This document shows positions 34,070 through 62,435 of a stretch of 64,000 nt of DNA, piece after piece (the stretch's first letter is position 1; every line of letters starts with the position of its first letter). The DNA lies in NCBI GenBank assembly GCA_024330215.1, contig JANDLU010000002.1:62001-126000 (forward strand). Direction: 5' to 3'. The position numbers and the translations under genes are program-made. The notes beneath the pieces were generated by a model. That model was not told the DNA's origin and made no database searches. It saw nothing but the letters and a program-made list of their open reading frames with translations. Source of the stretch: Candidatus Gaiellasilicea maunaloa. Lineage in GTDB: Bacteria; Actinomycetota; Thermoleophilia; Gaiellales; Gaiellaceae.

Positions 34070-34083
34070 TTTACGTTTGCATG
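34070..34083. promoter_or_regulatory. CTTTAC element half-site between ilvE and the PII gene; overlaps candidate -35 TTGCAT (34078-34083)
   Basis: CAAGACTTTACGTTTGCAT; TTGCAT-17-TACTGT (34101-34106). Confidence 0.4.
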
Positions 34084-34148
34084 TGGTAGCAGGATCGTCT
34101 ACTGTGTCGCCAGTGTCGCGCTGGCGTAGGCGCGGCCGGAGGCATCGG

Positions 34149-34181
34149 CGCCTCGAGAGCTTGCTCTCGGGCGCTTTTTTC
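34149..34181 (+). terminator. strong intrinsic terminator in the leader of the PII-amt operon (attenuator candidate)
   Basis: GCGCC-T-CGAGAGC-TT-GCTCTCG-GGCGC-TTTTTT on + strand, with no + gene upstream until 32005. Confidence 0.8.
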
Positions 34182-34201
34182 GTGGACCGATTGGAGGAGG
34201 A

Positions 34202-34552
34202 ATGGTGAAAGTCGAGGCAGTGGTCCTGCGCGAGCGGGTGGAGACGGTCATGGATGCCGTCGAGGAGCACACCGGTCACATCGGCGTCACCGTGATCGAG
34301 GCAGTCGGCCACGGCCGTCAGCGCGGGATCACACACGAGTACCGGGGCCGCGTGTTCGAGTCGCGGTTCCTACCGAAGGCGCACCTCATGTTCGTGGTCG
34401 ACGACGGGATCGCCGACCAGGTGATCGAGGCGATCGCCGACGCGGCGAGGACGGGACACTCCTCCGGCGACGGCATCTGCTGGACGAGCTCGGTCGCCAA
34501 CGTGACGCACAACCGAACCGGTAAGAGGCTCGAGGAGGTGGAATCGGCATGA
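34202..34552 (+). CDS. P-II family nitrogen regulatory protein, divergent T-loop
   Basis: VKVEAVVLRERVETVMDAVEEH...TVIEAVGHGRQRGITHEYRGRVFESRFLPKAHLMFVV...AARTGHSSGDGICWTSSVANVTHNRTGKR. Confidence 0.88.
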   Translation: MVKVEAVVLRERVETVMDAVEEHTGHIGVTVIEAVGHGRQRGITHEYRGRVFESRFLPKAHLMFVVDDGIADQVIEAIADAARTGHSSGDGICWTSSVANVTHNRTGKRLEEVESA

Positions 34553-35940
34553 CGACCAAGGACCTCGCAATCGCTACGAGCACGATCTGGGTCGTGCTCG
34601 CCGCAGTCCTCGTGATGTTCATGCAGGCCGGATTCGCCTTCCTCGAGGCGGGTCTGACCCGGATGAAGAACGTCGGCCACATCGCGGCGAAGAACGTGCT
34701 GATCCTGGCGCTCGCGTCGGTCGTCTACTACCTCGTCGGCTTCGGGATCGCGTTCGGCGACGGCGGCAACGGACTCTGGGGCGGCTCCGGTTTCCTGCCC
34801 TCGACGGATGAGCTGCTGACGGTTGGACAGGCGCCCTTCAGCTGGTTCGGGGCGATCCCGGCGGCGGCCGGCTACCTGTTCCAGGTCGTGTTCGCGGCAG
34901 TCTCGCTCGCGATCGTCTGGGGCGCGATGGCGGAGCGGACGCGGCTCTGGGTCTATTTCGCGTTCGGCACCGTCTTCACGCTGATCTACTCGCTCGTCTC
35001 GCACTGGATCTGGAGCCCGGACGGCTGGCTCTTCGCAAAGGGGATGCAGGACTTCGCCGGCTCGACCGTCGTCCACTACCAGGGGGCGCTCGCCGGCCTC
35101 GCCGGGGCGATCCTGCTCGGGCCGCGGATCGGCAAGTTCGGCGCGGACAAGAAGCCGAACGCGATCCCGGGCCACAACATGGCGTTCACGACGCTCGGCG
35201 TGATCATCCTCTGGTTCGGCTGGTTCGGCTTCAACGCGGGCTCGACGCTCTCGGTCGACTTCGGCGGGGTCGGCTTCTCCGCGTACGTCGCTCTCAATAC
35301 GAACCTCGCGGCGGCGTCGGGTGTGCTCGGCGCCATCGTCACCTCATGGCTCGTGATCAAGAAGCCAGACCTCTCGATGATGCTGAACGGGGCGATCGCA
35401 GCGCTCGTCGCGATCACCGCGGCGTGCGCGTTCGTCGCCCCGTGGGCCGCGATCGTGATCGGCTTCGTTGCCGGCGTGATCGTCGTCTTCGGCATCCTCG
35501 CGGTCGAGAAGATCGGGCTCGACGATCCGGTCGGCGCGATCGCTGCGCACGGGATGTCGGGCGTCTGGGGCACGCTCTCGCTCGGGTTCCTGACCGTGCC
35601 GTCGCTTGCGGACAGGCTCGCGACCGGCAAGGGCGGGCTCTTCTACGGCGGTGGGCTGCACCAGCTCGGCGTCCAGGCTCTCGGCCTGGCCGCGGTGGGC
35701 GCGTTCACGTTCAGCGCCTCGTTCCTCGTCCTCTATCTGTTCAAGAAGACGGTCGGGATCCGCACCGAGCCAGAGGACGAGAACGCCGGCCTGGACATCT
35801 CCGAGCACGGCATGTGGGGCTACCCCGAGTTCTACATTCCCGTACCCGGCGGCTACGGCACGGACGAGCCCGAGCCCGTGCATTCGCCGCAGAACGCCCC
35901 CGGACCGGCCGCACTGCTGCGCGCGCGGCCCGAAAGCTGA
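34549..35940 (+). CDS. amt: ammonium transporter (Amt family)
   Basis: MQAGFAFLEAGLTRMKNVGHIAAKNVL...AIVWGAMAERTRLWVYF...GSTVVHYQGALAGLAGAILLGPRIGKF...DDPVGAIAAHGMSGVWGTLSLG. Confidence 0.97.
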   Translation: MTTKDLAIATSTIWVVLAAVLVMFMQAGFAFLEAGLTRMKNVGHIAAKNVLILALASVVYYLVGFGIAFGDGGNGLWGGSGFLPSTDELLTVGQAPFSWFGAIPAAAGYLFQVVFAAVSLAIVWGAMAERTRLWVYFAFGTVFTLIYSLVSHWIWSPDGWLFAKGMQDFAGSTVVHYQGALAGLAGAILLGPRIGKFGADKKPNAIPGHNMAFTTLGVIILWFGWFGFNAGSTLSVDFGGVGFSAYVALNTNLAAASGVLGAIVTSWLVIKKPDLSMMLNGAIAALVAITAACAFVAPWAAIVIGFVAGVIVVFGILAVEKIGLDDPVGAIAAHGMSGVWGTLSLGFLTVPSLADRLATGKGGLFYGGGLHQLGVQALGLAAVGAFTFSASFLVLYLFKKTVGIRTEPEDENAGLDISEHGMWGYPEFYIPVPGGYGTDEPEPVHSPQNAPGPAALLRARPES

Positions 35941-35977
35941 GAATGAGGCCGGGAGCGCCAGCCGGCGTTCCCGGCCT

Positions 35978-37159
35978 CTACGACCCTTCCGTCGCGAGCG
36001 CGGCGCGAAGCCCGCGGAGCGCCTGAGCGATTCGGTGCTCGTTCTCGACCAGAGCGAAGCGGACGAAGTCGTCGCCACCCGGGCCGAAGCCTGCCCCTGG
36101 GCTCGCGGAGACCTTCCCCTCGCGCAACAGATGAAGCGCGAACGCGTGTGACCCAAGCGACCGGAACTGTCCCGGGATCGCAGCCCAGACGAACATCGTG
36201 GCGCTGGGGGTCGCCACCGGCCAGCCGATTCGCCTCAGTCCGCCGACGAGGATGTCGCGACGACGCCGGTAGGTGTCGCAGACCGTGGCCACATGGTCGT
36301 CGGCCTCGCGCATCGCGACGATGGCCGCGATCTGGATCGGCTGGAACGTGCCGTAGTCGAGGTAGGACTTGAGGCGGGCGAGCGCAGCGACGACGTCGGC
36401 GTTGCCGACCACGAAGCCGACGCGCCAGCCGGCCATCGAGTAGCCCTTCGTCAGCGAGTAGAGCTCGACTGCGACCTCGCGGGCGCCTTCGGCCTCCAGG
36501 ATGGACGGTGGCCGGTAGCCGTCGAAGGCGATGTCCGCGTAGGCGAAGTCGTGGACGACGACGAGCGAGCGCTCTCGCGCGAAGTCGACGACGCGCTGCC
36601 AGAACGGGAGGTCGACGACGGCAGTGGTGGGGTTGTGAGGAAACGACAGGATCAGGACGCGCGGGCGCGGGCGAGAGCGCTCGAACGCGTCCTGGAGCCC
36701 TTCGAGCACGTCTGAGCCGGCCTCCATCGCCACCTGCGCGACGCTCGCGCCGGCGAGCACGGGCGCGAAGAGGTGGATCGGATAGCTCGGCGAGGGGACG
36801 AGCGCGACGTCCCCGGGTTCCACGAGGACCCACAGCAGGTGCGCGAGTCCCTCCTTGGCCCCGATCGTGACGACGGCCTCACGTTCGGGGTCGAGCTCGA
36901 CCCCGAATCGTCGCGCGTAGAGCTCGGTGATCGCCGCGCGGAGGTTTGGAATCCCGCGGCTGGCCGAGTAGCGGTGGTTACGGGGTCGCGACGCGGCCTC
37001 TTGGAGCTTCGCGACGGCGACGCTCGGCGAGGGGAGATCCGGGTTGCCGAAGCCGAGATCGATGACGTCCTCGTTGGCGCGGCGCAGCTCGAGCTTGAGC
37101 CGATCGATCTCGGCGAACGCGTAGGGCGGGAGCGAGCCGACGCGACGAAGCGGGATCAC
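35978..37159 (-). CDS. class I/II PLP-dependent aminotransferase (AlaC-like)
   Basis: DVIDLGFGNPDLPSPSVAVAKLQEA...SFPHNPTTAVVDLPFWQRVVDFAR...SLTKGYSMAGWRVGFVVGN. Confidence 0.93.
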   Translation of the reverse strand: MIPLRRVGSLPPYAFAEIDRLKLELRRANEDVIDLGFGNPDLPSPSVAVAKLQEAASRPRNHRYSASRGIPNLRAAITELYARRFGVELDPEREAVVTIGAKEGLAHLLWVLVEPGDVALVPSPSYPIHLFAPVLAGASVAQVAMEAGSDVLEGLQDAFERSRPRPRVLILSFPHNPTTAVVDLPFWQRVVDFARERSLVVVHDFAYADIAFDGYRPPSILEAEGAREVAVELYSLTKGYSMAGWRVGFVVGNADVVAALARLKSYLDYGTFQPIQIAAIVAMREADDHVATVCDTYRRRRDILVGGLRRIGWPVATPSATMFVWAAIPGQFRSLGSHAFALHLLREGKVSASPGAGFGPGGDDFVRFALVENEHRIAQALRGLRAALATEGS

Positions 37160-37167
37160 AGCCCAAG

Positions 37168-37182
37168 CTTTACATACAGAAG
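37168..37182. promoter_or_regulatory. CTTTAC-ATA-CAGAAG element in divergent aminotransferase/sir promoter
   Basis: Member of recurrent CTTTAC-n3-STAAAG motif set. Confidence 0.4.
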
Positions 37183-37209
37183 TCGCTTTATTTTTGGTAG
37201 TAATACCGG

Positions 37210-38841
37210 ATGGCCCAGACTCGACCGCGGGAGCCCGCGACGTGGGAGCTCGTGCTCAAGCGCAACCCGGTGGAGCGGCTCAAGCAGGAGAAGAGCCCGC
37301 TCGGGATCCTCGACGAGCTCCCGGCGCTGATCGCCGCCGGCTACGAGCGGGTAGCCGAGGAGGACGTCGTCCGGCTCAAGTGGTGGGGCCTCTACCACGA
37401 CAAGCCGAAGATCGGGACCTTCATGCTTCGGATCAAGCTGCCCGCGGGACGGGCCGAGCCGCACCAGCTGCGGACGATCGGAGAGCTGTCGCAGCGATAC
37501 GGACGAAACGCCGGCGAGCTGACGACCCGGCAAACCGTCCAGCTCCATTACCTCGAGCTCGGAGCGCTCCCGCAGGTGCTCGCGGAGCTCCGGGAGGCCG
37601 GTGTGACGACCGCCGGCGGCTGCGGCGACGCCGTGCGCAACGTCACCGGGTGCCCAGTCCACAGCGTCGACCCGAGCGAGCTCTTCGACGTTACGCCCGT
37701 TGTCGACGAGGTCGTGTCCTTCTTCTACGGGAACCCGGACTACTTCGACCTGCCACGCAAGCACAAGATCACGATCTCGGCCTGCGCCGACCGCTGCAAC
37801 GCGCCCGAGATCAACTGCATAGCGCTGATCGGCGTCCTGCGCGACGGCGAGCCGGGCTTCGCGCTCAAGGTGGGCGGCGGACTCTCGTCGGTGCCCCGGA
37901 TCGCCCGCGACCTCGGCGTCTTTATCCGCCCTGACGAGGCACTGCCCGTCCTGCGCGCGCTGCTCGACGCGTGGAAGGAAGACCTGACCTACCGTGTCTC
38001 GCGAGTCAAGGCGCGGATCAAGTTCATGGTCGACGACTACGGGCCCGACGGCATGCGCGCCGAGCTCGAGCGGCGGCTCGGCTACGCGCTCCCCGATTTC
38101 GAGCTACCCGCCCCCGGCCCGCTCGCCGACCACCTCGGAGTCCACGACGACGGCCTCGCCGGGCACGTCTACGTCGGCGTCCCCGTCCACGTCGGGCTCC
38201 TCTCCGGAGAACAGCTCGTGGCGATCGCCGATCTCGCCGAAGAGCTCGGTCGCGACGTCCGCGTCACACGCCAGCAGAACTTCATCGTCACGGGAATCGC
38301 ACGGGAGCGGCTGGAGGAGGCGCTCGAGCGGCTCGCGGCGATCGGCTTCCCCGTCGAGCTCGACAACGCGCGCGGCACCTCGATCGCCTGCACCGGCGAG
38401 CCGCACTGCAACTTCTCCGTCACGGAGACGAAGACGCGGCTCGACGCCCTGATCCAGCACCTCGAGAGCCGCTTCGGGAGCGCGATCGCGGGCTTGCGGC
38501 TGGCGCTCGACGGCTGCCCGCACGCGTGCGCCCACCACTGGATCGGCGACCTCGGCTTCCAGGGCACCACTGTCCGCGACGAGCAGGGTAAGCGTCGCCA
38601 GGCCTACGACATCTTCCTGCGCGGCGGCCTCGGCCCGCACGCAGCAATTGGCAGGCCCGTGTTTCGGCGCGTGCCCGCTGAGGATCTGGCGGTCGCGGTC
38701 GAAGGCCTTGTCGGCGGCTGGCTCGAGGCTCGCGCGGTGGACGAGAGCTTCGTCGACTTCGCCCTTCAACTCACCAACGACGAGCTCGGGCTGCTGGCGG
38801 GCCTCGAGCCGTCCAAGCCCAGAGAGGTGGCGGCGGTATGA
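37210..38841 (+). CDS. ferredoxin-dependent nitrite/sulfite reductase
   Basis: QRYGRNAGELTTRQTVQLHYL...TTAGGCGDAVRNVTGCPVHSVDP...GEPHCNFSVTETKTRLDAL...LALDGCPHACAHHWIGDLGFQG. Confidence 0.96.
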   Translation: MAQTRPREPATWELVLKRNPVERLKQEKSPLGILDELPALIAAGYERVAEEDVVRLKWWGLYHDKPKIGTFMLRIKLPAGRAEPHQLRTIGELSQRYGRNAGELTTRQTVQLHYLELGALPQVLAELREAGVTTAGGCGDAVRNVTGCPVHSVDPSELFDVTPVVDEVVSFFYGNPDYFDLPRKHKITISACADRCNAPEINCIALIGVLRDGEPGFALKVGGGLSSVPRIARDLGVFIRPDEALPVLRALLDAWKEDLTYRVSRVKARIKFMVDDYGPDGMRAELERRLGYALPDFELPAPGPLADHLGVHDDGLAGHVYVGVPVHVGLLSGEQLVAIADLAEELGRDVRVTRQQNFIVTGIARERLEEALERLAAIGFPVELDNARGTSIACTGEPHCNFSVTETKTRLDALIQHLESRFGSAIAGLRLALDGCPHACAHHWIGDLGFQGTTVRDEQGKRRQAYDIFLRGGLGPHAAIGRPVFRRVPAEDLAVAVEGLVGGWLEARAVDESFVDFALQLTNDELGLLAGLEPSKPREVAAV

Positions 38842-39686
38842 GCGGCGTAGGCTCGACGGAGCCGAGCGGAGGTGCCGGCCTTGCCGGCGCCGGAGCGGGA
38901 GGAACAGTCGAGATCTTGGACGAGCTCGAAGCTGGAGAGCTCTCGATCGAGTTCGAGGGAGCGGAGCCGCAGGAGCTCCTCGGCTGGGCGCTCGAGCGCT
39001 TCGCGCCGCGGCTCGCGCTCTCGACCGCCTTTCAGGCGGGCGACGTCGTCCTGATCGACATGGTGCACGAGCTCGACGGCCAGGCGCGCGTCTTCTCGGT
39101 CGACACCGGGCGGCTTCCCGCCGAGACGCACGAGCTGATCGAGGAGCTCCGCCGGCGCTACCCCGGCCTTCAGCTCGATCTGCTGGCGCCCGACGCGGGT
39201 CAGCTCCAGCGGATGGTCGGCACGCACGGCCCGAACCTCTTCCACCAATCGGTCGAGCGGCGGCTGCTCTGCTGCAACGTCCGCAAGGTGCAGCCGCTGA
39301 CGAAGCACCTCGCGAGTCTCGACGCATGGTTCACCGGGCTCCGGCGCGACCAGTGGGCGAGCCGCTCCGACATCCGCAAGATCGAGATCGACCACGACCA
39401 CGGCGCGATCGTGAAGCTCAACCCCCTTGCCGAATGGACCGAGGAGGAGTGCTGGGACTACGTGCGCGAACACGACCTGCCCACGCACGGCCTCTACGCG
39501 AAGGGCTACACCTCGATCGGCTGCGCGCCGTGCACGCGCGCGATCGCGCCGGGCGAGGACACGCGCGCCGGACGCTGGTGGTGGGAGACAGGAGCGCCGA
39601 AGGAGTGCGGGATCCACTGCGCGGTCGAGACCGGAGGCCTCGAGCACGAGCTGCACGCGATCCTCGGCGAGGACGCCGATGCCTGA
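38838..39686 (+). CDS. cysH: phosphoadenylyl/adenylyl-sulfate reductase
   Basis: LALSTAFQAGDVVLIDMVHELDGQARVFSVDTGRLPAETHELIEEL...RRLLCCNVRKVQPL...LYAKGYTSIGCAPCTRAIAPGEDTRAGRWWWE...KECGIHC. Confidence 0.95.
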   Translation: MSGVGSTEPSGGAGLAGAGAGGTVEILDELEAGELSIEFEGAEPQELLGWALERFAPRLALSTAFQAGDVVLIDMVHELDGQARVFSVDTGRLPAETHELIEELRRRYPGLQLDLLAPDAGQLQRMVGTHGPNLFHQSVERRLLCCNVRKVQPLTKHLASLDAWFTGLRRDQWASRSDIRKIEIDHDHGAIVKLNPLAEWTEEECWDYVREHDLPTHGLYAKGYTSIGCAPCTRAIAPGEDTRAGRWWWETGAPKECGIHCAVETGGLEHELHAILGEDADA

Positions 39687-40152
39687 GTCGGTCCGGCCCG
39701 AGACGGTCAAGCTGCGCGACATGGAGCGCGACGTCGCGCTCGCGGAGGCCCAGGCGGTCTACATCCTCGCCTCCGAGCCCGGCTACCGTGACGACCTCGC
39801 GGCCCTCCTCGCAGCCATCGACGAAGGTGAGCTCGACTCGCCGGACGTGACGACGCTCGAGCGAGTGCTCGAGCTGGCTCTCCAGACGGGACGGGTCCGC
39901 GCCATCTACGGACCCGGAGGCGAGCAGGCCGCGCTGCGGCTCTACCGGCGGCTCCCTCGCGGGAGTGAGCTGGGCGCAAGCGCCGCAGCGGTGACGGGCG
40001 CGTTGACCGCGCTCGTCGGGAGACGGCTCGATTCGGTCCGCCTCGAGGCGACGGGGCCGGGTAGCTTCGCGCTCGCGTTCTCGCTTGAGGGCGCCGACGT
40101 GTCGATCCGGCTCGACCGTCAGGGCGCACGGCTTACGAGCCTCGCGACGTGA
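39679..40152 (+). CDS. conserved hypothetical protein downstream of cysH
   Basis: MPESVRPETVKLRDMERDVALAEAQAVYILASEPGYRDDLAALLAAIDEGELDSPDVTTLERVLELALQTGRVRAIYGPGGEQAALRLYRRLP; overlaps cysH stop. Confidence 0.75.
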   Translation: MPESVRPETVKLRDMERDVALAEAQAVYILASEPGYRDDLAALLAAIDEGELDSPDVTTLERVLELALQTGRVRAIYGPGGEQAALRLYRRLPRGSELGASAAAVTGALTALVGRRLDSVRLEATGPGSFALAFSLEGADVSIRLDRQGARLTSLAT

Positions 40153-40165
40153 CCCTAGATCAAGA

Positions 40166-40180
40166 CTTTACTTTCTAAAT
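40166..40180. promoter_or_regulatory. CTTTAC-TTT-CTAAAT element upstream of leuCD
   Basis: Overlaps a possible -35 (TTTACT-17-TAGGCT). Confidence 0.4.
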
Positions 40181-40217
40181 CGCAATCGATAGGCTCCGGA
40201 AGCTGGACTCCCTCCCC

Positions 40218-40254
40218 GGTCAGCGCGGGCGTCACACCGCCGCCCGCGCTGACC
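40218..40254 (+). other. perfect 14-bp hairpin in leuC leader
   Basis: GGTCAGCGCGGGCG-TCACACCGC-CGCCCGCGCTGACC; no U tract follows. Confidence 0.7.
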
Positions 40255-40285
40255 CACCCAGTCCCTCGGGCACGACACGACGCAC

Positions 40286-41695
40286 ATGAGGACATCAAAA
40301 ACCCTGTTCGAGCGAATCTGGGAGAGCCACCTGGTGGCGCATCCCGACGGTGAGCCGGCGCTGCTCTATGTCGATCTCCATCTCGTGCACGAGGTGACGT
40401 CGCCGCAGGCGTTCGAGGGGCTGCGGCTCGCGAGCCGCCGGGTTCGCCGCCCGGAGTTGACGCTCGCGACCATGGATCACAATGTGCCCACGACGGAGGG
40501 GCCGGTGGACGATCCGCTTGCCCGCCAGCAACTCGACGCGCTCCGCGACAACTGTGCGGCGTTCGGTGTTCCGCTCTTCGCGACCGGGAGCGGGCGTGAG
40601 GGGATCGTCCACGTGATCGGGCCGGAGCTAGGGCTGACCCAGCCGGGAATGACAATCGTCTGCGGCGACAGCCACACCTCGACGCACGGCGCGTTCGGCG
40701 CGCTTGCCTTCGGGATCGGTACGTCCGAGGTCGAGCATGTCCTCGCCACGCAGACGCTGCCGCAGTCGCCCCCCCGGACCATGCGGGTCGTCTTCGAGGG
40801 CGACCCGCCAGAAGGTGTCAGCGCCAAGGATCTCATTCTTGCTGCGATCGGCGAGGCGGGGGTCGCGGGCGGTGTTGGCCACGTCGTCGAGTACGCCGGT
40901 CGCGTGATCGAGCAGCTCTCGATGGAGAATCGCATGACCATCTGCAACATGTCGATCGAGTGGGGTGCCCGTGCGGGGATGGTGGCCCCCGACGACACGA
41001 CATTCGCGTACCTCGAGGGCCGAGCGGGAGCGCCGCGCGGTCGCGCGTGGGAGCGGGCCCTCGACGAGTGGCGCGCGCTACCCACGGATGCCGGGGCGCG
41101 ATTCGACCAAGAGGTCGTCGTCGACGTCTCGGCGCTCGCGCCGCAGGTCACCTGGGGAACGAATCCGGCGATGGTCGCGCCGCTGGACGGCTCGGTTCCG
41201 GATCCCGCCGACTACGACGATCCCGACCAGCGCGCCGCCGTCGAGCGCGCGCTGACGTACATGGGGCTCGACCCGGGGACGCCGATCGGCGAGATCTCGG
41301 TCGATCGAGTCTTCATCGGCTCCTGCACGAACTCCCGGATCGAGGATCTCCGATCCGCGGCCGCGATCATCGCGGGACGCCGGATCCATCCGAGGGTGCG
41401 CGCGCTCGTCGTTCCGGGCTCCGCGAGCGTCAAGCGCCAGGCCGAGGAGGAGGGGCTCGACCGCATCTTCGCCGCGGCCGGCTTCGAATGGCGCCGCGCG
41501 GGGTGCTCGATGTGCCTGGGGATGAACCCCGACATCCTCCAGGCCGGCGAACGTTGTGCGTCGACCTCGAATCGCAACTTCGAGGGCCGGCAGGGCGCCG
41601 GCGGCAGGACGCACCTCGTCTCGCCCACCGTCGCCGCCGCGACGGCTTTGGCCGGTCATTTCGTCCACCCTCAGGAGCTGGAGCCGGTGGCATGA
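40286..41695 (+). CDS. leuC: 3-isopropylmalate dehydratase large subunit
   Basis: [38 protein letters not shown]...[32 protein letters not shown]...[17 protein letters not shown]. Confidence 0.97.
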
Positions 41696-42279
41696 AGCGG
41701 TTCGAGAAGGTGACGGCGCGCGTCGCCGTGCTCGACCGTGCCGACGTGGACACCGACCAGATCATCCCGAAGCAGTTCCTCAAGCGGATCGAGCGGACCG
41801 GCTATGGCGAGTTCCTCTTCTTCGATTGGGCCAAGGATCCAGGTTTCGAGCTCCACCGACCGCAGTTCGCGGGGGCACGGATCCTCCTCACGGGGCGCAA
41901 CTTCGGTTGCGGCTCGTCTCGCGAGCACGCGGCGTGGGCGCTTCAGGATGCGGGCTACGACGCTGTCATCGCTCCGTCCTTCGGCGACATCTTCAGGACG
42001 AACTCGCTGAAGATAGGGCTTCTGCCCGTCGCTCTCCCTGCGGCCGAGATTCGGGTGCTGATGGAGGTCGCGAACGATGGGGGCGAGATGACGATCGATC
42101 TGGAGGCGCTCGAGTTGATCGCGCCGGACAGGCCCCGGATTCCCTTCCAACTCGACGCGTTCGAGCGCGAGCGCCTGCTCGGGGGCCTCGACGATATCGC
42201 CCTGACCCTGAGGAGAGACCCCGAGATCACCGCGTACGAGGCCGCACACCCCGCGCGCGTCGCGACGATCTCCCTCTAG
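41692..42279 (+). CDS. leuD: 3-isopropylmalate dehydratase small subunit
   Basis: [46 protein letters not shown]...[46 protein letters not shown]. Confidence 0.97.
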
Positions 42280-43130
42280 CGTCCCTCCGCGTTGCCGGCC
42301 GCCTCTCCCGAGAAGATCCGACGATACGCTCGCGGGGTCGTCTCTCGTAGTTCCCTGAATCGCCGATTGAAGTTGGCGAGGTTCGTGAAGCCGGATTCCG
42401 CCGCGACGCGTGCGATCGGAAGATCGGTGCCGGAGAGCAAAGCGCAGGCTCGAGCCACTCTGAGCTCGTTGAGATAACCCGTGAAGGAGCGGCCCATCGC
42501 TCGGCGGAAGAAGCGGCTGAACGAGCCTGGGGTCATGTGCGCCACCTCGGCCGCTTTGGCGATGGGGAGGGGTTGCGTGCAGTTTTCGTGCAGGAAGCCA
42601 CACACGTCGTCGATCCGGCGACGAGTGTGCTCGTGCGGTCGTGACCCGGCTGGGCCACAGAGTGCCCGGCGCTGCGCACGACTCAGCTCGAGCAGGATGT
42701 CGAGGAGCCGGAGCAGTCGGTGGAGTCCGGCGGCGGCTTCGAGGTCGTTGAAGGCGCGCACGGCCGCTCCCGATGCCCGGAAGCCGAGCGCTCCGTGTGA
42801 CGGTTCGAGGAGCTCCCGAAGCGCATGCGCATCAGCCCGAGCCAGGAGCGGCTCGCCGACGAAGTCGCGCGTGAAGTGAACGACCATTCCGGCTCCTGCA
42901 GGCACCGGCGTATTGGACGCCCACGTGTGCGAGACGTTCGACCCGATCAGCACGAGGTCGCGCGGGCCGAACTCGTCCACGCGGTCTCCCATGAAACGCG
43001 TCCCGCTGCCCTCGGTGATCAACGAGAGCTCGTATTCCGGGTGGTAGTGCCGGTTGAAGCCGAACGACTCGTCGACGAGCCGCAGAAATCCAAACCCGGT
43101 CGTCGGCAGACGCTCCCGCACGGCATCCAT
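42276..43130 (-). CDS. AraC family transcriptional regulator with cupin-like sensor
   Basis: FNRHYHPEYELSLITEGSGTRFMGDRVDEFGPRDLVLIG...RRIDDVCGFLHENCTQPLPIAKAAEVAHMTPGSFSRFFRRAMGRSFTGYLNELRVARACALL. Confidence 0.93.
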   Translation of the reverse strand: MDAVRERLPTTGFGFLRLVDESFGFNRHYHPEYELSLITEGSGTRFMGDRVDEFGPRDLVLIGSNVSHTWASNTPVPAGAGMVVHFTRDFVGEPLLARADAHALRELLEPSHGALGFRASGAAVRAFNDLEAAAGLHRLLRLLDILLELSRAQRRALCGPAGSRPHEHTRRRIDDVCGFLHENCTQPLPIAKAAEVAHMTPGSFSRFFRRAMGRSFTGYLNELRVARACALLSGTDLPIARVAAESGFTNLANFNRRFRELRETTPRAYRRIFSGEAAGNAEGR

Positions 43131-43372
43131 GCGGGAAACGATACGTCTCGGTCGGCGTCGGCGGGATAGGTTACCGCAGAGCTGCTCTCTGAGTACCAGT
43201 TCTGGACGACTCTGACGGAGCACGAACGTCCCCGGCCAGCCAGACTCGAACCATGCCCACGCGGCGCCCATCCGGCCATCGAGGTCGCGGTCGGCGCCTC
43301 CGAGTTCCGTTTCCTCGATACCGAGACACGGCTCGTCATCCGTGGAAACGGCTCGCAACCGAAAGGAGTCTC

Positions 43373-44677: not shown

Positions 44678-44681
44678 GAAC

Positions 44682-46025: not shown

Positions 46026-46026
46026 C

Positions 46027-46917: not shown

Positions 46918-46924
46918 GCTCGCG

Positions 46925-47893: not shown

Positions 47894-48058
47894 GGAGCTC
47901 CGAGCTAGCTGCGGCCGGCGCAGCGACACGGGCAGCCCACATCGTGCGCAGATCGTCTGTGAGGCGCCCTTCTGAACCGCGCGCTCCTTCGGTAGCGGCT
48001 CCTCGCAGACGCAGATCGACGCGAGGCCGGGGCTGCGAGGTGGAGGAGTCGGGTCACG

Positions 48059-48073
48059 CTTTACAGAGTAAAG
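48059..48073. promoter_or_regulatory. perfect CTTTAC-AGA-GTAAAG palindrome
   Basis: Best copy of the recurrent motif; lies downstream of chorismate mutase-like gene and upstream of a candidate small minus-strand ORF. Confidence 0.45.
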
Positions 48074-48096
48074 TTAAGTTGCCGGGCGCGCAAGTC

Positions 48097-48414: not shown

Positions 48415-48433
48415 TCAGCCCGTGAGCGGAGAA

Positions 48434-49654: not shown

Positions 49655-49835
49655 CTGGGCGGGCCTCCTTGTCGTTGTCTCGCTCTACATCGCCCGAGCG
49701 AGCCTGCTGCTCGGCCGGCTTGGCACCTTGCCGCCACAATCGGGTGCGACGGGCAGGTTGCCGAGGCGTCGACGGGCCGGTTCCCTCAGCCTCTCTTGAT
49801 GCGGAGCGGGACGGGTGCCCGCTGCCATTGCGCAG

Positions 49836-49847
49836 TATAAAGTAAAG
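49836..49847 (+). promoter_or_regulatory. TATAAA -10-like box plus GTAAAG half-site immediately at proA start (leaderless promoter candidate)
   Basis: GCAGTATAAAGTAAAGTGGTGGAC. Confidence 0.45.
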
Positions 49848-53891: not shown

Positions 53892-54703
53892 ACCTGGCCG
53901 GCTCCTGTCGTCGAGATCGAGAGAGTGAGCACGTCGGCGTCGGGAAACGCGAGGCGTAGCTCGTCCGCGCATGCAGCGGCCGTCTCGCGCTGCGCCCACA
54001 CGATGACGCTCGGGCCTGAGCCGGAGAGCGTCGCGGCGATCATGCCGGCCGGGGGGTGCTCGCGTACCGCTCCGAGCAGCGGTGCCCAGCCGGCGCGATA
54101 GGGCTCGTGCAGGCGGTCGTCGGCCGCCGCGGCGAAGAGCGTGACGGAGCCGGTGGCGAGCGAAGCGCCGAGGACGGCGGCGCGCGCGACGTTGTGCGCG
54201 GCGTCGGCGTGGCTGATGAACGACGGTAACGCCTCGCGCGCGGCCCTCGTCCCCACCCGCTCGGCCGGAACGAGCGCGATCGGCGTTGCCGGCGCATCGT
54301 TGGCGATCCGCGCGATCGCGCCGTTCCACGTCAGGCATACGCCGCCGGCGAGCGCTGCCGCGAGGTTGTCGGGGTGGCCTTCGAGGTCGACCCCAATCGC
54401 GAGCAGCTCCTCCGGATCGAGGTCGCGGCCGGCGACGAGCGCGCCGGCGACGAGCCCGAGCGCGATCGTGGCCGCGCTCGAGCCGAGTCCGCGCTCGCGC
54501 GGAATCCGGTCGGTAAACGAAAAGCCGAGGCCCTCGAGCGGCGCGATCCGCTCGAACGCACGCACGGCGAGATGGTCGCGATCCGGTGGCGGCGCGCTCT
54601 CCGAGATCTCGACCTCGTTCCAGAGGTCGAGCGCGGCCGCAGCGCAGTCGAAGGCGGGGCCGATGTTCGCCGTGGTCGCGGGCGCGCGGACGCGGATGCT
54701 CAT
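53888..54703 (-). CDS. thrB: homoserine kinase (GHMP family)
   Basis: [31 protein letters not shown]...[25 protein letters not shown]. Confidence 0.95.
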
Positions 54704-55551
54704 CGAACCGCGTCGGGATCTTTCAGGCCGTGGCCCGTGACAACGCACACGACGAGCGCGTCGCGCAGGCCCGCCGCCTCGACGGCGGCGAGCCCTGCCG
54801 CGCTCGCTGGCTCGCAGAAGATCCCCTCCTCACGCGCCAGCGCGTGCCAGGCGCTCGCGAGCCGCTTTTCAGAAAGCGAGACCACCTCTCCGGCGCATCG
54901 CTCGACCACTCGCCGGACCTCTTCGCGGTGGACGGGCTCGGCGATGCGGATCGCCGACGCGAAGGTGTCGCACCGCCGGGCTGCCTCACCGAGTACGAAG
55001 CGCGGCTGCGTCTCGCCGAAGCCGCGCGAGTACGCCACGGTGTTGCCGCCGCCGCCGAACGGAAGGGCGAGGACGTCTGGCGCGCCGCCGAGCTGCTCGA
55101 GCACCTCGCGCGCCGCCGAGCTCTGCCCCTCGATCCGGTCCGGGTTGATCGAGTTGACGTTGACGAGCTCCTCCTGGTCGGCGAGTCGCTGTGCCTCGTG
55201 GTGCGCGTCGTTGAAGGTGCCGTCGATCTCGCGCAGCTCGGCGCCGGCCGCGCGCACCTGCGCGAGCTTCGAGCGGGCCACCGCGCCGCCGCTCGTCACG
55301 ACGACGGCTCGCAGCCCCGCGCGGGCGGCGTAGGCCGCCGCCGCCGCCGCGGTGTTCCCGGTCGACGCGCAGACGACCCCGGCAGCGCCGCGCTCGACGG
55401 CGCGGGAGACCGCGAGCGCCATGCCTCGATCCTTGAACGACCCTGTTGGATTCGCGCCCTCCCACTTCACCCACAGCTCGAGCCCGAGCGTCTCCGAGAG
55501 ACGCGGCGCGTGGAGAAGTGGTGTCGAGCCTTCTCCGAGCGTGACCCTCAT
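54700..55551 (-). CDS. thrC: threonine synthase
   Basis: [77 protein letters not shown]. Confidence 0.94.
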
Positions 55552-55567
55552 CGTTCGATCAAAGCAG

Positions 55568-56857
55568 CTAGATCCCCCGCTCGTCGATCACGCGGAGCGC
55601 GTCGGGGAGGCCGTGAACCTCCGGGAGCCGGGCGATCGCGTCGAGCGCGGTCGCGACGCGGCCGGACGGAGCCGTGTGCGTGACGACGTCGAGGGCCGCG
55701 CTGCCGTTGACGACGTGCTGCGCGAGCCGCGCAATCGAGACGCCCTCGTCGGCGAAGCGCGCGGCGACGTGCGCCAACACGCCGGGCCGATCGGCGACCT
55801 CGATGTGGACGTAGTACGGCGCCGGCAGCTCGCCCGGCGGCAGCTTCGGCAGCGACCGCCAGCAGGCGTCGCCCTGGAGGAATCCTGTTCCCGTCGTTCC
55901 GAGCACGCTCACCATGTCCGCGACGACCGCCGAAGCCGTCTCGAGACCGCCTGCGCCCGGGCCCTCGAGCATGAGCTCGCGAATCGCGTCGCCCTGCAGC
56001 ATCACGGCGTTGAACGGCCCCTCGACCGAGGCGAGCGGGTGGTGTCGGTCGACGAGTGCCGGCCCGACGCGGACGTCGACTGCGCCGTCCACCAGCGTGG
56101 CGGTGCCGACGAGCCGCACGACCGCCCCGAGGGATCGCGCCGCCTCGACGTGCTCGGGCCGGAGCCGGTCGATGCCCTCGTACGAGACGTCGGCCAGCTC
56201 GACACGCGAACCGAAGGCGACGCTCGCGAGGATGGCCATCTTCGCCGCCGAATCGGCGCCCGAGACGTCGTCGGTCGGGTCGGCTTCCGCGTAGCCCAGC
56301 CGCTGTGCCTCGGCGAGCGCATCCTGGTACGCGGCGCCGGACTCCATCCTCGTGAGGATGAAGTTCGTCGTGCCGTTGACGATTCCGAGCACGCGGTGGA
56401 CGTTGGTGACCACGAGCGACTCGCGCAGGACCTTGATCACGGGGATGGCCGCGCAGACCGAGGCCTCGAAGCGCATCTGGACCCCGGCCTCGGCGGCGGT
56501 CGCGAAGAGCTCGGTGCTGCGCCGGGCAAGGAGTTGCTTGTTGGCCGTCACGACCGGCTTGCCGGCCCGGAGGAGGTCGAGGACGTAGCCACCGGTCGGC
56601 TCGACGCCGCCCATGACCTCGGCAACGAGGGTCACCGATTCGTCCTCGAGGATCGAGGCGAAGTCGGTGGTCAGCACCCCCTCTCCCGCAGCGAAGCCGC
56701 GCTCCTTGCCCGGATCGCGGACGAGTGCGTGCACGACGCGAAGGCGGTGTCCGGTGGCCCGCTCGATGTCCTCGGCGTTCTGCTCGAGGAGCCTGTGCAC
56801 GGCCGCGCCCACGGTGCCGTACCCGAGGAGCGCGACGGGAACGTCAACCGACGCCAT
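55568..56857 (-). CDS. hom: homoserine dehydrogenase with C-terminal ACT domain
   Basis: [20 protein letters not shown]...[34 protein letters not shown]...[14 protein letters not shown]...[27 protein letters not shown]. Confidence 0.96.
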
Positions 56858-57854
56858 GCACGTCCGCGCCGAGGAGTCCCCGTTTGCCGGCGAGCTCGCG
56901 CAGCTCGCTTCCGACCTGCTCGAGCTGCCCGCCCGTCTGCTCGCGCCGCAGGTGCTCGAACCGCGGCCGGCCGGCGTCGTCGTCCTCGAAGAGCTCGCGC
57001 GCGAACGCGCCACTTCGGATCTCCGCGAGGATCTCGCGCATCGTCTCCTTCACGCCCGCGTCGACGACGCGAGGGCCGCGCGTCAGGTCGCCGTACTCGG
57101 CGACGTCCGAGATCGAGTAACGCATGTACTCGAAGCCGCCCTCGTAGATCAGGTCGACGATCAGCTTCAGCTCGTTTACGACCTCGTAGTAGGCGATCTC
57201 GGGCTGGTACCCCGCCTCGACCAGCGTCTCGAAGCCCGCCTTGATCAGCGCCGTCGCGCCGCCGCAGAGCACGGCCTGCTCGCCGAAGAGGTCGCTCTCG
57301 GTCTCTTCGGCGAACGTCGTCTCGAGCAGCCCCACGCGACCGCAGCCGATCGCCGTCCCGTAGGCGATCGCGAGCTCGAGCGCCTGGCCGCTCGCGTCCT
57401 GGTGCACAGCGACGAGCCCGGGCGTTCCGGCTCCGGCCTCGTAGAGCTCGCGGACGCGGTGCCCGGGTGCCTTGGGTGCCACCATCACGACGTCGTGCCC
57501 GGCGGGTGGGACGACGCGGCCGAAGTGGACGTTGAGCCCGTGGGCGAAGAGGAGCGCGGCGCCGTCCGCGAGGCTGGGCTCGATCTCGCCTTCGTAGACC
57601 GGCTTCTGGACGTGGTCGGGAAGAAGGATCGCCACGACCTGCGCGCCGCTGACCGCGTCGGCGATCTCCTTGACGACGAGTCCGGCGTCCTCGGCCAGCT
57701 CGCGGGACGGGCTCCCGGGTCGCAGGCCGACTTCGACGTCGACGCCGGAGTCGCGCAGGTTCAGTGCATGAGCGTGTCCCTGGCTGCCGTAACCGATCAC
57801 GGCGACCTTGCCTGAGAGCAGATCGAGATTCCCGTCGGTGTGGATCCTGGCCAT
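56844..57854 (-). CDS. ilvC: ketol-acid reductoisomerase
   Basis: [34 protein letters not shown]...[56 protein letters not shown]. Confidence 0.97.
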
Positions 57855-57874
57855 TTCCTGCTCCTTCTAGTAGG

Positions 57875-58390
57875 TCAGCGGAGAACGTACTGGGGACGGC
57901 CGTCCGGTACCGGCGCGGCCGCGCGAGCCAGCCCGATCCGGCCTGTTCGGACGAGCTCCTTGACGCCGTGGGGGCGGACGAGCTCCTCGAAGGCGTCGAC
58001 CTCTCCGGGCGCTCCCACGATCTCGAACACGATCGCGTCGGGGCCGAGATCGGCGACGCGGGCACGGAAGGCCTCGGCGAGCGCGAGTAGCTCCGCGCGG
58101 CGTGAGGGAGGCGCCGCGACGTTGATCAGAGCCAGCTCGCGCTCGACGGATTCACCCGGCGGAAGCTCGTTCACCCGGAGGACGTCCACCAGCTTGTGAA
58201 TCTGTTTCTCGATCTGCGAGAGCGCGTGGTCGGCGCAGTCGACTCGGAGCGTGATCCGCGAGACGTCGCGACGCTCGGTCGGCCCGACAGCGAGGCTGTC
58301 GATGTTGAAGCTGCGGCGCCGGAACATGCTCACGACTCGCGCGAGCGCTCCAGGTCTGTTCTCGACCAGGATCGAGAGCGTGTGCTTCAC
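57875..58390 (-). CDS. ilvN: acetolactate synthase small subunit
   Basis: MKHTLSILVENRPGALARVVSMFRRRSFNIDSLAVGPTERRDVSRITLRVD. Confidence 0.96.
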   Translation of the reverse strand: MKHTLSILVENRPGALARVVSMFRRRSFNIDSLAVGPTERRDVSRITLRVDCADHALSQIEKQIHKLVDVLRVNELPPGESVERELALINVAAPPSRRAELLALAEAFRARVADLGPDAIVFEIVGAPGEVDAFEELVRPHGVKELVRTGRIGLARAAAPVPDGRPQYVLR

Positions 58391-60096
58391 GCGGGCACCG
58401 CTTGCCCGTCCGGGTACTCGACGAGCTGGAGCGCGGACGCGCCGGCCGGAATCATCGGGAAGCAGTGCTCGCGCGCGTCGACCCTGCAGTCCACGACCGC
58501 GGTTCGCCCGCAGGCGAGCGCCTCCTCGAGAGCCGGTCGCAGCTCATCGTCGCTCTCGACCGTGAAGCCGCGCGCGCCGTAGGCCTCGGCGAGGGCCGCG
58601 TAGTCGGGCAGGTGGTGGGTCAGCTCGATCTGGGAGAAGCGCTCGCCGAAGAACATGTCCTGCCACTGCCGGACCATCCCGAGGGAGCCGTTGTTGACGA
58701 GCACCACGACGATGGGCAGATCCTCGAGCACGGACGTCGCCAACTCCTGGCAGGTCATCTGGAAGCAGCCGTCGCCGTCCACACAGACGACGGTTGCCTC
58801 GGGCCGAGCGGCCTTCGCTCCGATCGCGGCGGGAATTCCGTACCCCATCGTTCCGAGCCCGCCCGACGTGATGAACGTGCGGGGGCGGTCGCAAAGCAGA
58901 TACTGCATCGCCCACATCTGGTGCTGCCCGACGCCTGTCGTGAAGACAACGTCGCTTCCGACCGTCAGCTCCTGGAGCGCCTCGAGCACCGGCTGCGGCT
59001 TGAGCATCTCGCCCTCGTTTCCGTACCGAAGCGGGAACTGTTCCCGCCACTCGCGGAGCTGCGCGAGCCACGGCTCGGTCGAGCCGGGGACCGCTACCTC
59101 GCGCAGCTCGCGGGTGAGCTCGGCGAGGACAGGTTTCAGCGGCCCCACGACCGGGACGTCGGCGTAGCGGAGCTTGTCGATCTCGGCCGAGTCGACATCG
59201 AGATGGATCACCGTGGCACCGGGTGCGAATGCGGACAGCTTCCCGGTGACGCGATCGTCGAAGCGAGAGCCGACCGCGACGAGCACGTCGCACTTGTTCA
59301 TGGCCCAGTTCGACCACTTCGGCCCATGCATGCCAGGCCAGCCGAAATGGAGCTCATGCGTCTCCGGGAATGCGCTCTTCGCCATCAGCGTCGTCACGAC
59401 GGGGAGCCGGGCCGCCTGGGCGAGCTCGAGCAGCTCGTCCGTGGCGTGCGCGTTGAGCACGCCGCCGCCGACGTAGAGGACCGGGCGCTCGGCCTCTGCA
59501 AGCTGGCGGGCGGCCTCGCGCACCTGCCGAGCGTGCACGCGCTTGGGCGGACGCCAGCCGGGGAGGTCGACGACGTCGGGGTAGGTGAACTCGAGGAGCG
59601 CTTCCTGGATGTCGCGAGGAATGTCGACGAGCACGGGCCCGCAGCGACCGGTGCCGGCGACGTGGAAGGCGGCCTTGATGATCGCGGGAATCTCCGCCAC
59701 GTCCTGCACGAGCCAGGAGTGCTTGACGATCGGGATCGTGATCCCGGTGATGTCGCATTCCTGGAAGGCATCGGTCCCGATCAGGTGCGAGCGGACCTGA
59801 CCGGTGATGCACACGAGTGGCGTCGAGTCCATCCACGCGTCGGCGATCGGAGTAACAAGGTTCGTTGCGCCCGGCCCCGAGGTCGCGAACGCAACCCCGA
59901 TCCGGCCGGAGGCGCGTGCGTAGCCCTCGGCCATGTGCCCGGCGCCCTGCTCGTGCCGGGCGAGCACGTGATGGATGCTCGTCCCGCGCGCGAGCGCGTC
60001 GTAGATCGGCAGGATCGCGCCGCCCGGGATGCCGAAGACGACGTCGACCCCCTCGGCCTCGAGCGACCGAAGGACTGCGTCGGCGCCGTTCGTCAC
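58387..60096 (-). CDS. ilvB: acetolactate synthase large subunit
   Basis: GADAVLRSLEAEGVDVVFGIPGGAILPIYDALA...GVAFATSGPGATNLVTPIADAWMDSTPLVCITGQV...VVCVDGDGCFQMTCQELATSV. Confidence 0.97.
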   Translation of the reverse strand: MTNGADAVLRSLEAEGVDVVFGIPGGAILPIYDALARGTSIHHVLARHEQGAGHMAEGYARASGRIGVAFATSGPGATNLVTPIADAWMDSTPLVCITGQVRSHLIGTDAFQECDITGITIPIVKHSWLVQDVAEIPAIIKAAFHVAGTGRCGPVLVDIPRDIQEALLEFTYPDVVDLPGWRPPKRVHARQVREAARQLAEAERPVLYVGGGVLNAHATDELLELAQAARLPVVTTLMAKSAFPETHELHFGWPGMHGPKWSNWAMNKCDVLVAVGSRFDDRVTGKLSAFAPGATVIHLDVDSAEIDKLRYADVPVVGPLKPVLAELTRELREVAVPGSTEPWLAQLREWREQFPLRYGNEGEMLKPQPVLEALQELTVGSDVVFTTGVGQHQMWAMQYLLCDRPRTFITSGGLGTMGYGIPAAIGAKAARPEATVVCVDGDGCFQMTCQELATSVLEDLPIVVVLVNNGSLGMVRQWQDMFFGERFSQIELTHHLPDYAALAEAYGARGFTVESDDELRPALEEALACGRTAVVDCRVDAREHCFPMIPAGASALQLVEYPDGQAVPA

Positions 60097-60995
60097 GATG
60101 CTTCCCGGACGAACTCGAACGCGAGCCCCCGAGGGAGCTCGGCGAGGACCGCATCGGTGGCGCCCCGCGTCGAGACGTCGCGTGGCTCCGTTCGGGTCTG
60201 GCCGACGGCCCGCGCGAGCGTGTCGGCGGCGCTCCTCTCCCCCAGGCCGTCGCCGAGCGTCAAAGCGGCGGCGAGCAGGAGCGGAGCGGGATCGGCCACG
60301 CCGTGGCCCGCATGATCGTGACCGTCGTCATGGGACGTTCCGAAGATGCTCGGCCCGTTCTCGGCAAGCCGGCCCCACGCGGCGATCCGGTTGGGCGCGG
60401 TGCAGGCAGCCACGGCGGCGACGGAGGTGGCGAGGTCGGGAGGAACGACCACGACGTCGAAGTGGCGCGGTGCCGTGACGAGGGCCGACATCGCCGCCCC
60501 GATCGGCATCCGCTCGACCTGAAAACCGGGGTGTGCCGCCTCTGCCGCGGCGGTGTCCGCCTCGTACACGGCCGGCACGCCGACGAGCGTGACGCGCGCC
60601 CGGCTTGCGCGCGCAATGTCGAAGGCGCGGTCGAGAGTCCACTGCCAGGCCTCGTTATGCAACGGCGCCACGATCGATAGCTCGCAGCGGCCCTCGTAGC
60701 GGACGCGGGTGATCGAGGCGCGAAGGTCGAGCTCGGCCTCGATCGCGTCGAGCGGCCCGTCAACGCCCGGCGCGACGAGGACGACGTCGGCGGCAAGCAC
60801 CGCACCGCGTGACGAGTTCGGGTACGGGTGCCCGTAGCGCATGAGCGCGTCCACGCCGAACGGCACGAACTCCTGCTCGACCTCGAACCCGTGCAACCGC
60901 GACGCTGCTGCGACAGCGCGACTGGTGGCCGCCACGAGCTCGGGCCCGACGCCGTGACCGGCGATGCACGCGAGCGTGTAGCGCTTGCCCGTCAC
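60093..60995 (-). CDS. LeuB/isocitrate dehydrogenase-fold protein, apparently lacking catalytic and metal residues
   Basis: CIAGHGVGPELVAATSRAVAAAS...RVTLVGVPAVYEADTAAAEAAHPGFQVERMPIGAAMSALVTAPRHFDVVVVPPDLATSVAAVA...GPSIFGTSHDDGHDHAGHGVADPAPLLLAAALTL. Confidence 0.75.
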   Translation of the reverse strand: MTGKRYTLACIAGHGVGPELVAATSRAVAAASRLHGFEVEQEFVPFGVDALMRYGHPYPNSSRGAVLAADVVLVAPGVDGPLDAIEAELDLRASITRVRYEGRCELSIVAPLHNEAWQWTLDRAFDIARASRARVTLVGVPAVYEADTAAAEAAHPGFQVERMPIGAAMSALVTAPRHFDVVVVPPDLATSVAAVAACTAPNRIAAWGRLAENGPSIFGTSHDDGHDHAGHGVADPAPLLLAAALTLGDGLGERSAADTLARAVGQTRTEPRDVSTRGATDAVLAELPRGLAFEFVREAS

Positions 60996-62143
60996 TGGAC
61001 GGTCACCTGCGCCGTGAGAACATCGTGAATCGTGAGCGGGCTCCCCGAGTCGGCAAGAGCCTTGAAGCGGGCGAAAGCGTCGGCCAGCTCGGCGGTCTCC
61101 AGGTGGAAGCCGGCGTCCGTACAGGCGAGCGCGAAGGCGTGCCGGCCGGAGTGCTTCCCGAGCGGGAGCGTCATCGCAAGACCGAGCTCGGCCGGCTCGA
61201 TGATCTGATACGTGGACACGTCCTTGAGCAGGCCGTCCTGGTGGATCCCTGCCTCATGCGCGAACGCGTTTGCGCCGACGATCGCCTTGTTCGGGGGCAC
61301 GTCGTAGCCGGTGGCGAGCTCGACGAGCCTCGACGTCGCCGCGAGCTCGCTCGTGTCGATGCCGGTATCGACCCCGAAGTAGTCCCGCCGGACGTGCAAC
61401 GCCATCACGATCTCCTCGAGGGAGGCGTTTCCGGCGCGCTCGCCGATTCCGTTGACCGTGCACTCGACCTGCCCGACGCCCGCCTCGACGGCCGAGAGCG
61501 AGTTGGCGACCGCGAGACCGAGATCGTCGTGGCAGTGGGCGGAGAGGACGACTCCGCGGAGCTCGGGGCAGCGGCGCCGCACCTCGATCAGAAACGCCGC
61601 GTACTCGGCGGGGAGCATGTAGCCGACAGTGTCCGGAAGGTTGATCACGTCTGCGCCTGCGGCGATGGCTGCGCGGCAGACCTCGGCAACGAAGGCGGGA
61701 TCGGAGCGCGTCGAGTCCTCGCACGAGAACTCGACCTCGTCGACCCGGTCGAGCGCGTAGGCGACCGCAGCGGCCGCCTGCTCGAGGACCTCCGCCGGCT
61801 CGAGGCGGAGCTTCTTCTCCATGTGGATCGGGCTGGTCGCAAGGAAGATGTGCAGCCGCGACCGGCGCGCATCAGCGAGCGCCTCTGCGCCGGCGTCGAG
61901 GTCCTCGCGGCGCGTCCGGCAGAGCGTGGCGACGGTGGCGCGAGACGTGGCACGGGCGACGGCGCGGACGCCCTCGAAGTCGCCGGGCGACGAAGCCGCG
62001 AAGCCCGCTTCGACCACGTCGACGCCGAGACGCTCGAGCTGACCGGCAACCTCGACCTTCTCGTGGGGCTCCAGCGCGATGCCCGGCGATTGCTCGCCGT
62101 CGCGAAGTGTGGTGTCGAAGATGTCGATCCTGCGCGAACTCAC
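60992..62143 (-). CDS. leuA: 2-isopropylmalate synthase, short form without C-terminal LeuA allosteric domain
   Basis: [60 protein letters not shown]...[43 protein letters not shown]...HQDGLL; ends at 383 aa. Confidence 0.88.
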
Positions 62144-62153
62144 GGTTCCTCCT

Positions 62154-62173
62154 TGCGTCGTCGAGACGACGCA
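62154..62173 (-). other. hairpin abutting the leuA Shine-Dalgarno
   Basis: Minus strand TGCGTCGT-CTCG-ACGACGCA followed directly by AGGAGG and the GTG start at 62143. Confidence 0.6.
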
Positions 62174-62227
62174 CCTCTGGCCTGGACGGTGGGTGTGTGC
62201 GCCGAGGCGCGTGTTCGCGTCGCTCCC

Positions 62228-62317
62228 CTAGACGGGGAGAATCAGGATGAGGCCGAGCACGAGCGATGACGCCAGGGAGGCGGCGCGCGCGAAGATCGAT
62301 GGTGTGCTCGTCGGCAT
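62228..62317 (-). CDS. candidate leuA leader peptide, 29 aa, Leu/Ile/Val rich
   Basis: ATG at 62317: MPTSTPSIFARAASLASSLVLGLILILPV*. Confidence 0.5.
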   Translation of the reverse strand: MPTSTPSIFARAASLASSLVLGLILILPV

Positions 62318-62342
62318 CGTGGGACTCAGCGTGCCAGCAACG

Positions 62343-62357
62343 CTTTACGTTGTCAAG
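62343..62357. promoter_or_regulatory. CTTTAC-GTT-GTCAAG element; minus strand reads CTTGACAACGTAAAG overlapping a TTGACA -35-like box for leuA
   Basis: Member of recurrent motif set. Confidence 0.5.
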
Positions 62358-62418
62358 TCACTGTAGAAAGAACATTCTTTTGTATTCAAGCGCTTCGGGT
62401 TGCGCGGCCGAGGCCATT

Positions 62419-62435
62419 GCTTTACTCTCTAAAGC
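62419..62435. promoter_or_regulatory. GCTTTA-CTCTC-TAAAGC inverted repeat upstream of gltB
   Basis: Member of recurrent motif set (CTTTAC-TCT-CTAAAG); contains TACTCT -10-like with TTGCGC 17 nt upstream. Confidence 0.5.

Follow-up and report, generated by a model that had tools for sequence, protein, structure and literature searches.

A 15-bp inverted repeat at sulfur-assimilation and amino-acid promoters of a Gaiellales genome and its candidate HxlR-family regulator

A stretch of 64 kb from the genome of Candidatus Gaiellasilicea maunaloa (GenBank assembly GCA_024330215.1, contig JANDLU010000002.1, positions 62,001 to 126,000), referred to here as the window, raises the question of whether a short inverted repeat recurring between its biosynthesis genes is a regulatory site and, if so, which genes it controls and which protein reads it. 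A first-pass annotation had described the repeat as CTTTAC-n3-STAAAG and proposed an undescribed global regulator of amino-acid and nitrogen metabolism. We are highly confident that the element is a real transcription-factor operator. The regulon is small and local, and its conserved core is sulfur assimilation, namely the sir-cysH-siroheme operon, to which leuA, leuC and gltB, and perhaps PII, were added in a subset of genera. Hardly anything has been described of regulation in Thermoleophilia and Gaiellales, soil actinobacteria that for the most part are uncultured, and our literature search found neither a Gaiellales regulon nor a description of such an operator. The outcome is a specific operator, a delimited group of target genes and a named candidate for the protein that reads it.

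All seven sites listed previously exist, at most one base off (34069, 37168, 40166, 48059, 49842, 62343 and 62420). Intergenic DNA makes up about 9% of the window and holds eight of its nine CTTTAC or GTAAAG hexamers, the remaining one being coding (16335); none occurs in the intergenic regions of the catabolic half, as had been noticed before. The observation thus withstands the refutation test named in the first-pass annotation, an equal frequency in coding regions. Allowing up to three mismatches, CTTTACNNNGTAAAG has 12 matches in the window versus 2.16 expected, a number reached by none of 100 shuffles (maximum 6). A weight matrix trained solely on sir upstream regions of other genera, excluding the source genome, finds six sites of 13.4 to 17.2 bits (37168, 37186, 40166, 48059, 62343 and 62420), all of them intergenic. 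The best coding score in the window with this matrix is 7.9 bits, and shuffled intergenic DNA (2000 dinucleotide shuffles) yields on average 0.04 matches at 12 bits. The inverted repeat itself is borne out, while its form needs to be widened to CTTY-N7-RAAG, a 15-bp element with an A/T centre that occurs singly or in tandem at 18 or 23 bp. Five of the sites listed previously are full sites by the matrix, to which 37186 is added; the remaining two are not equal members, as their scores in the following list show.

37168 to 37182, unstranded: operator 1 of a tandem pair, CTTTACATACAGAAG, 17.2 bits, in the 50-bp gap between an aminotransferase gene (minus strand) and sir (plus strand); orthologous pair in G046
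37186 to 37200, unstranded: operator 2 of the pair, CTTTATTTTTGGTAG, 16.2 bits, 9 bp ahead of the sir start codon ATG at 37210
40166 to 40180, unstranded: operator over the leuCD -35 box, CTTTACTTTCTAAAT, 13.9 bits
48059 to 48073, unstranded: perfect palindrome CTTTACAGAGTAAAG, 16.2 bits, flanked by the convergent genes for an esterase and a chorismate mutase
62343 to 62357, unstranded: operator over the leuA -35 box, 13.4 bits, CTTGACAnnGTAAAG kept at leuA in G006 and G046
62351 to 62356, minus strand: leuA -35 box TTGACA, with a 17-bp spacer and the -10 box CACGCT at 62328 to 62333 (G006 has CACACT there)
62420 to 62434, unstranded: operator upstream of the gltB-gltD-hxlR operon, CTTTACTCTCTAAAG, 14.3 bits
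49833 to 49847, unstranded: weak element over the thrC -10 box, 6.4 bits, directly upstream of an S-adenosylmethionine (SAM) riboswitch; CTTTAC kept between thrC and proA in G006 and G046
34069 to 34083, unstranded: CTTTAC half-site between ilvE and PII, 3.3 bits; the orthologue in G046, CTTTACTCTTTACAG, reaches 7.8 bits and keeps CTTTAC

The palindrome at 48059-48073, the only perfect one, lies where two convergent genes end. It may be a relic left at the edge of an insertion (AraC, sugar transporter, esterase) that neighbours leuD, or else the promoter of a small RNA that has no annotation.

The conservation of the element was followed through 103 genomes of the Gaiellales family to which the host belongs. 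These relatives are not independent of one another and include incomplete metagenome-assembled genomes, so that single absences are weak evidence. In leave-one-genus-out scans, 22 of 24 family genomes had a site scoring 9 bits or more upstream of sir, with just 51 bp of upstream sequence covered in one of the two negative genomes. The tandem arrangement recurs as well: the sir pair has the same 18-bp register in the source genome (G000), G046, G022, G049 and G074, and the two sites are 23 bp apart in G019, G100 and G125. The sir genes of other groups have no comparable sites, except for a lone match of 13.6 bits and a handful of about 10 bits, and therefore the motif looks specific to one Gaiellales family. 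Upstream of leuA, a TTGACA...CACRCT-like promoter is conserved in eight family genomes, and among these the dyad CTTGACAnnGTAAAG covers the -35 box only in G000, G006 and G046, that is, in three genera. Sites at gltB are also present in G046 (15.6 bits), G104 and G080. An exact search for the 15-mers in 40 relatives had looked negative because the motif differs between genera, and the divergent forms were recovered by phylogenetic footprinting.

The size of the regulon does not bear out the global regulator that had been proposed. With at most one mismatch, the 15-mer occurs five times in the 3.85 Mb of the source genome, three of these in the window. In G019, for which 860 kb were scanned, 800 kb of them chosen without regard to the motif, there are no matches of at least 10 bits in 802 kb of coding DNA versus five in 58 kb of intergenic DNA. 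Matches above 12.5 bits are confined to sir (two) and a 1-Cys peroxiredoxin gene (one), and the unselected 800 kb contain three matches at 9 bits or more. Genome-wide counts of CTTTACNNNNNNNAG and CTTTACNNNGTNWAG show little or no excess over a reversed-pattern control; position alone separates real from chance sites, and pattern counts alone would therefore mislead. Family-wide, intergenic matches lie upstream of sir, gltB, leuA, peroxiredoxin genes (G002, G006, G019) and genes for rhodanese-type sulfurtransferases (G012, G082), as well as at a 2-oxoacid:ferredoxin oxidoreductase gene (G046), at serA in a gap common with sir (G020) and at metY (L255). Many of these loci were chosen by a motif query, which biases their counts; this bias is smaller for the G019 stretches and for the leuA and leuC contigs. 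Sites were found at several targets outside the training set (leuA, leuC, gltB, peroxiredoxin, rhodanese and metY). Of the proposed role in amino-acid and nitrogen metabolism, a recurrent and conserved non-coding repeat at such promoters is retained, and the core target is sulfur assimilation instead.

The position of the sites relative to the promoters points to their mode of action. The previously suspected overlap with promoter boxes is found at the leuA -35 box (62351-62356) and at the leuC -35 box (40167-40172), where TTTACT is followed, as read from the sequence, by a 17-bp spacer and TAGGCT (40190-40195). At sir, the sites cover the last bases before a leaderless-looking start. Coverage of -35 or -10 boxes is what a repressor would show, and repression is therefore the most likely mode of action.

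The candidate for this factor is a protein of about 115 amino acids with a PF01638 winged helix (E=1.9e-29), encoded in the source genome by the last gene of gltB-gltD-hxlR, downstream of site 62420 and about 4.7 kb past the window end, at 130731-131081 of the contig (locus L089, 4731-5081). The gene hxlR adjoins gltB in G000, G046 and G006. In G107 and G100 it comes after gltBD and has a site some 60 bp upstream, and in G020, G108 and G110 it is located before ilvB. Of 103 family genomes, 95 have a match at E<=1e-8, as does every one of the 35 that are near-complete. Sites of at least 12.5 bits lie no more than 120 bp upstream of 8 of 41 hxlR genes versus 6 of 1291 other genes (Fisher 1e-9), and several of these six are targets themselves. 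Two forms can be distinguished. A cysteine 12 residues before a KWT motif marks form A and is present in 39 of 42 HxlR proteins; it is missing only from the gltB-linked form B copies of G000, G046 and G006, which fall outside the well-supported form A group (98/100). These B copies occur in the same three genera in which a site covers the -35 box of leuA.

Taken together, a single dimeric transcription factor would read the 15-bp operator, with a conserved function within the Gaiellales family in sulfur assimilation (sir, cysH and siroheme genes) and at the 1-Cys peroxiredoxin, and in the source genome and its near relatives its control would extend to leuA, leuCD and gltBD. The most likely candidate for this factor is the HxlR/DUF24-family winged-helix protein, with its cysteine-bearing form A in nearly all family members and the cysteine-less paralogue B at gltB in three genera, form A presumably responding to thiol or cysteine status. 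The explanation as a whole, a repressor operator read by HxlR with a sulfur core and a leucine and glutamate extension, is given a slightly better than even chance on the basis of the genomic evidence. Several observations weigh against it. Form A hxlR is also found in genomes without sir, usually beside peptidase and acetamidase genes and without a site. The eight hxlR upstream sites come from three genera, whose members are not independent, and some lie over a TACAAT -10 box. G049 has strong sites and an HxlR that is just 38% identical, an orthologue being present in two congeners, and the source genome encodes at least three close HxlR paralogues.

Alternatively, the same operator may be read by a regulator of the LysR, Fur/PerR, TetR or MarR type encoded elsewhere, which we regard as unlikely, although it is the most serious of the alternatives. 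The boxes of LysR (T-N11-A) and Fur (7-1-7) are also compatible with a 15-bp dyad that has a fixed A/T centre, and form A hxlR lies mostly outside the cluster. On the other hand, within the regions read, hxlR is the only regulator gene that turns up at the cluster in several genera or has a site upstream, with one Rrf2 gene in G015 as the sole exception. Tests of co-occurrence covered Lrp, Rrf2 and IclR, and that they did not extend to LysR, Fur, TetR and MarR also counts against HxlR. Each of Lrp, Rrf2 and IclR was rejected as the regulator, as each is missing from some site-bearing genomes. For a CymR-like Rrf2 regulator of cysteine metabolism, an improbable reader of the site, many genomes of the family do have an Rrf2 gene adjacent to the sulfate transporter, and it is commoner where sir is present; however, no Rrf2 of such type was found in the site-bearing G000 (97% complete) and G002, and the sulfate-transporter promoters have no site. 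In E. coli, leucine, glt and ser genes are under an Lrp/AsnC regulator; one of this type would share the targets gltB, leu and serA, and Lrp sites resemble a 15-bp dyad with an AT centre, but the AsnC-type domain is found in none of the site-bearing G020, G046 and G002, which makes this the least probable of the alternatives. Hardly more credible is the absence of any dedicated regulator, in which case CTTTAC would be the -35 box of AT-rich promoters and its symmetry accidental. Several CTTTAC copies are indeed -35 boxes 17-18 bp from TAnnnT, yet the two half-sites recur from genus to genus, as does the tandem spacing of 18 or 23 bp, the motif is missing from almost every other promoter of G019, and other genera retain the leuA TTGACA while losing GTAAAG.

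The closest known system is that of NdgR (IclR family, SCO5552), for which chromatin immunoprecipitation sequencing in Streptomyces coelicolor identified ilvBNC, leuB, leuCD, weakly leuA, cysI-cysH, cysG, thiosulfate sulfurtransferase and cysM as targets and the 15-bp imperfect palindrome [GT]T[CT]CAC[CA][CTA][TC][GC][TC]GGAC as its site (PMC4340878). The NdgR/LtbR regulon and the Gaiellales set have in common a 15-bp palindrome and targets in branched-chain amino acid and cysteine metabolism. An IclR regulator of this type would explain the nearly identical target set and the similar core of the palindrome (PMC4340878). It is nevertheless improbable, and marginally more so than the Rrf2 regulator, because the IclR_C domain is found in none of the site-bearing G020, G049 and G004 and no IclR gene lies beside leuCD in G000, whereas NdgR is encoded there in actinomycetes. 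Furthermore, the NdgR site reads KTY...GGAC and the Gaiellales element CTT...AAG, and gltBD is a target only in the Gaiellales set. Since IclR was not found in all site-bearing genomes and the candidate is of the HxlR type, the set was not classed as NdgR; it looks like an independent counterpart of the Streptomyces leucine/cysteine regulon. That an HxlR-family thiol-sensing repressor took over an NdgR-type sulfur and branched-chain amino acid regulon in Gaiellales, with the cysteine-less gltB paralogue adding glutamate and leucine, is a tentative proposal to which we give somewhat less than an even chance.

Among HxlR/DUF24 proteins (HxlR, HypR/YybR, YodB, CatR, QsrR), the candidate is similar to the YybR (4a5n) and HxlR (7bze) chains. 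The N-terminal cysteine of form A is, we assume, at about the position of YodB Cys6, while the gltB-linked copy lacks it, unlike the YodB-type subgroup with its N-terminal redox cysteine. The described members compared sense quinones and oxidants, in contrast to the sulfur, glutamate and leucine biosynthesis genes of the Gaiellales set. YodB binds DNA as a dimer (PMC8063818); a search of papers for its operator consensus found none. If the assignment to HxlR is true, two unrelated regulator families would have converged on a leucine-plus-cysteine regulon, which would suggest a common physiological reason, such as iron-sulfur cluster, siroheme and thiol supply to the pathways, and the range of HxlR/DUF24 would widen from stress defence to primary biosynthesis.

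The targets stand in the right half of the window among ilvE, PII-amt, an aminotransferase gene, sir-cysH, leuCD, chorismate mutase, thrC, proAB and ilvD-thrB-thrC-hom-ilvCNB-leuB-leuA, followed by gltB. Genes were called with a simple codon-usage script, and the starts are not curated.

37210 to 38841, plus strand: sir, ferredoxin-type nitrite/sulfite reductase, core target; then cysH and a conserved 157-amino-acid protein
40286 to 41695, plus strand: leuC, target; leuD next (41692-42279)
60992 to 62143, minus strand: leuA, target; heads leuA-leuB-ilvBNC-hom-thrC-thrB-ilvD
62228 to 62317, minus strand: leuA leader peptide MPTSTPSIFARAASLASSLVLGLILILPV*, a leader of the LEU-element type
62560 to 64000, plus strand: gltB, target; extends past the window end, with gltD and hxlR next on the contig (L089); start provisional

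The 157-amino-acid protein behind cysH has no family match and no known DNA-binding domain. For gltB, no in-frame ATG, GTG or TTG lies between the last stop and the N-terminal motif (62382-62600, plus strand), which reflects either an unusual start codon or a base error. The presence of leuA, leuC and sir in just some family genomes (sir in 26 of 103) suggests widespread amino-acid and sulfur auxotrophy in the family.

A LEU element, in which a leucine-rich leader peptide is followed by CTCCCC...GGGGAG, has been described upstream of actinobacterial leuA (PMC1262725). The same arrangement is common to the family genomes inspected: the leuA leader in the window is rich in leucine and isoleucine and is followed by such a segment, as at the leuA loci L044-L051, and this type of leader thus appears to extend to Gaiellales. 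Rfam gave no match at 62228-62317. The LEU element acts at the RNA level, separate from the DNA operator. With a leader peptide and a LEU-like segment beside the operator, control of leuA is therefore probably two-layered. The LeuA protein itself (60992-62143, minus strand) has 383 amino acids and aligns to the first ~375 of ~516 profile positions, so the C-terminal leucine-feedback domain appears to be absent.

The SAM riboswitch beside the weak thrC element lies at 49684-49805 (minus strand), upstream of this threonine synthase gene. In genus g38 (L188, L192, L194), a SAM riboswitch is located between operator-like sites and sir. The idea that the operator had been swapped for the riboswitch in this genus was dropped, as scans show the operator-like sites directly upstream of it.

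At loci L333-L340, an Rrf2 gene is convergent to sbp-cysTWA in many family genomes, and the promoters there are without the motif. On another contig of the source genome (C144), a motif-like site of 13.3 bits lies between argR and a divergent gene (L004:1501-1515). In the window, ilvE (33120-34024, minus strand) consists of two overlapping reading frames, between which some 20 positions of the family profile are missing, due to a frameshift or an assembly error. The leuA operon encodes a diverged LeuB-like protein (60093-60995, minus strand), and another leuB of more typical sequence follows the siroheme genes on the same contig (L132, L089).

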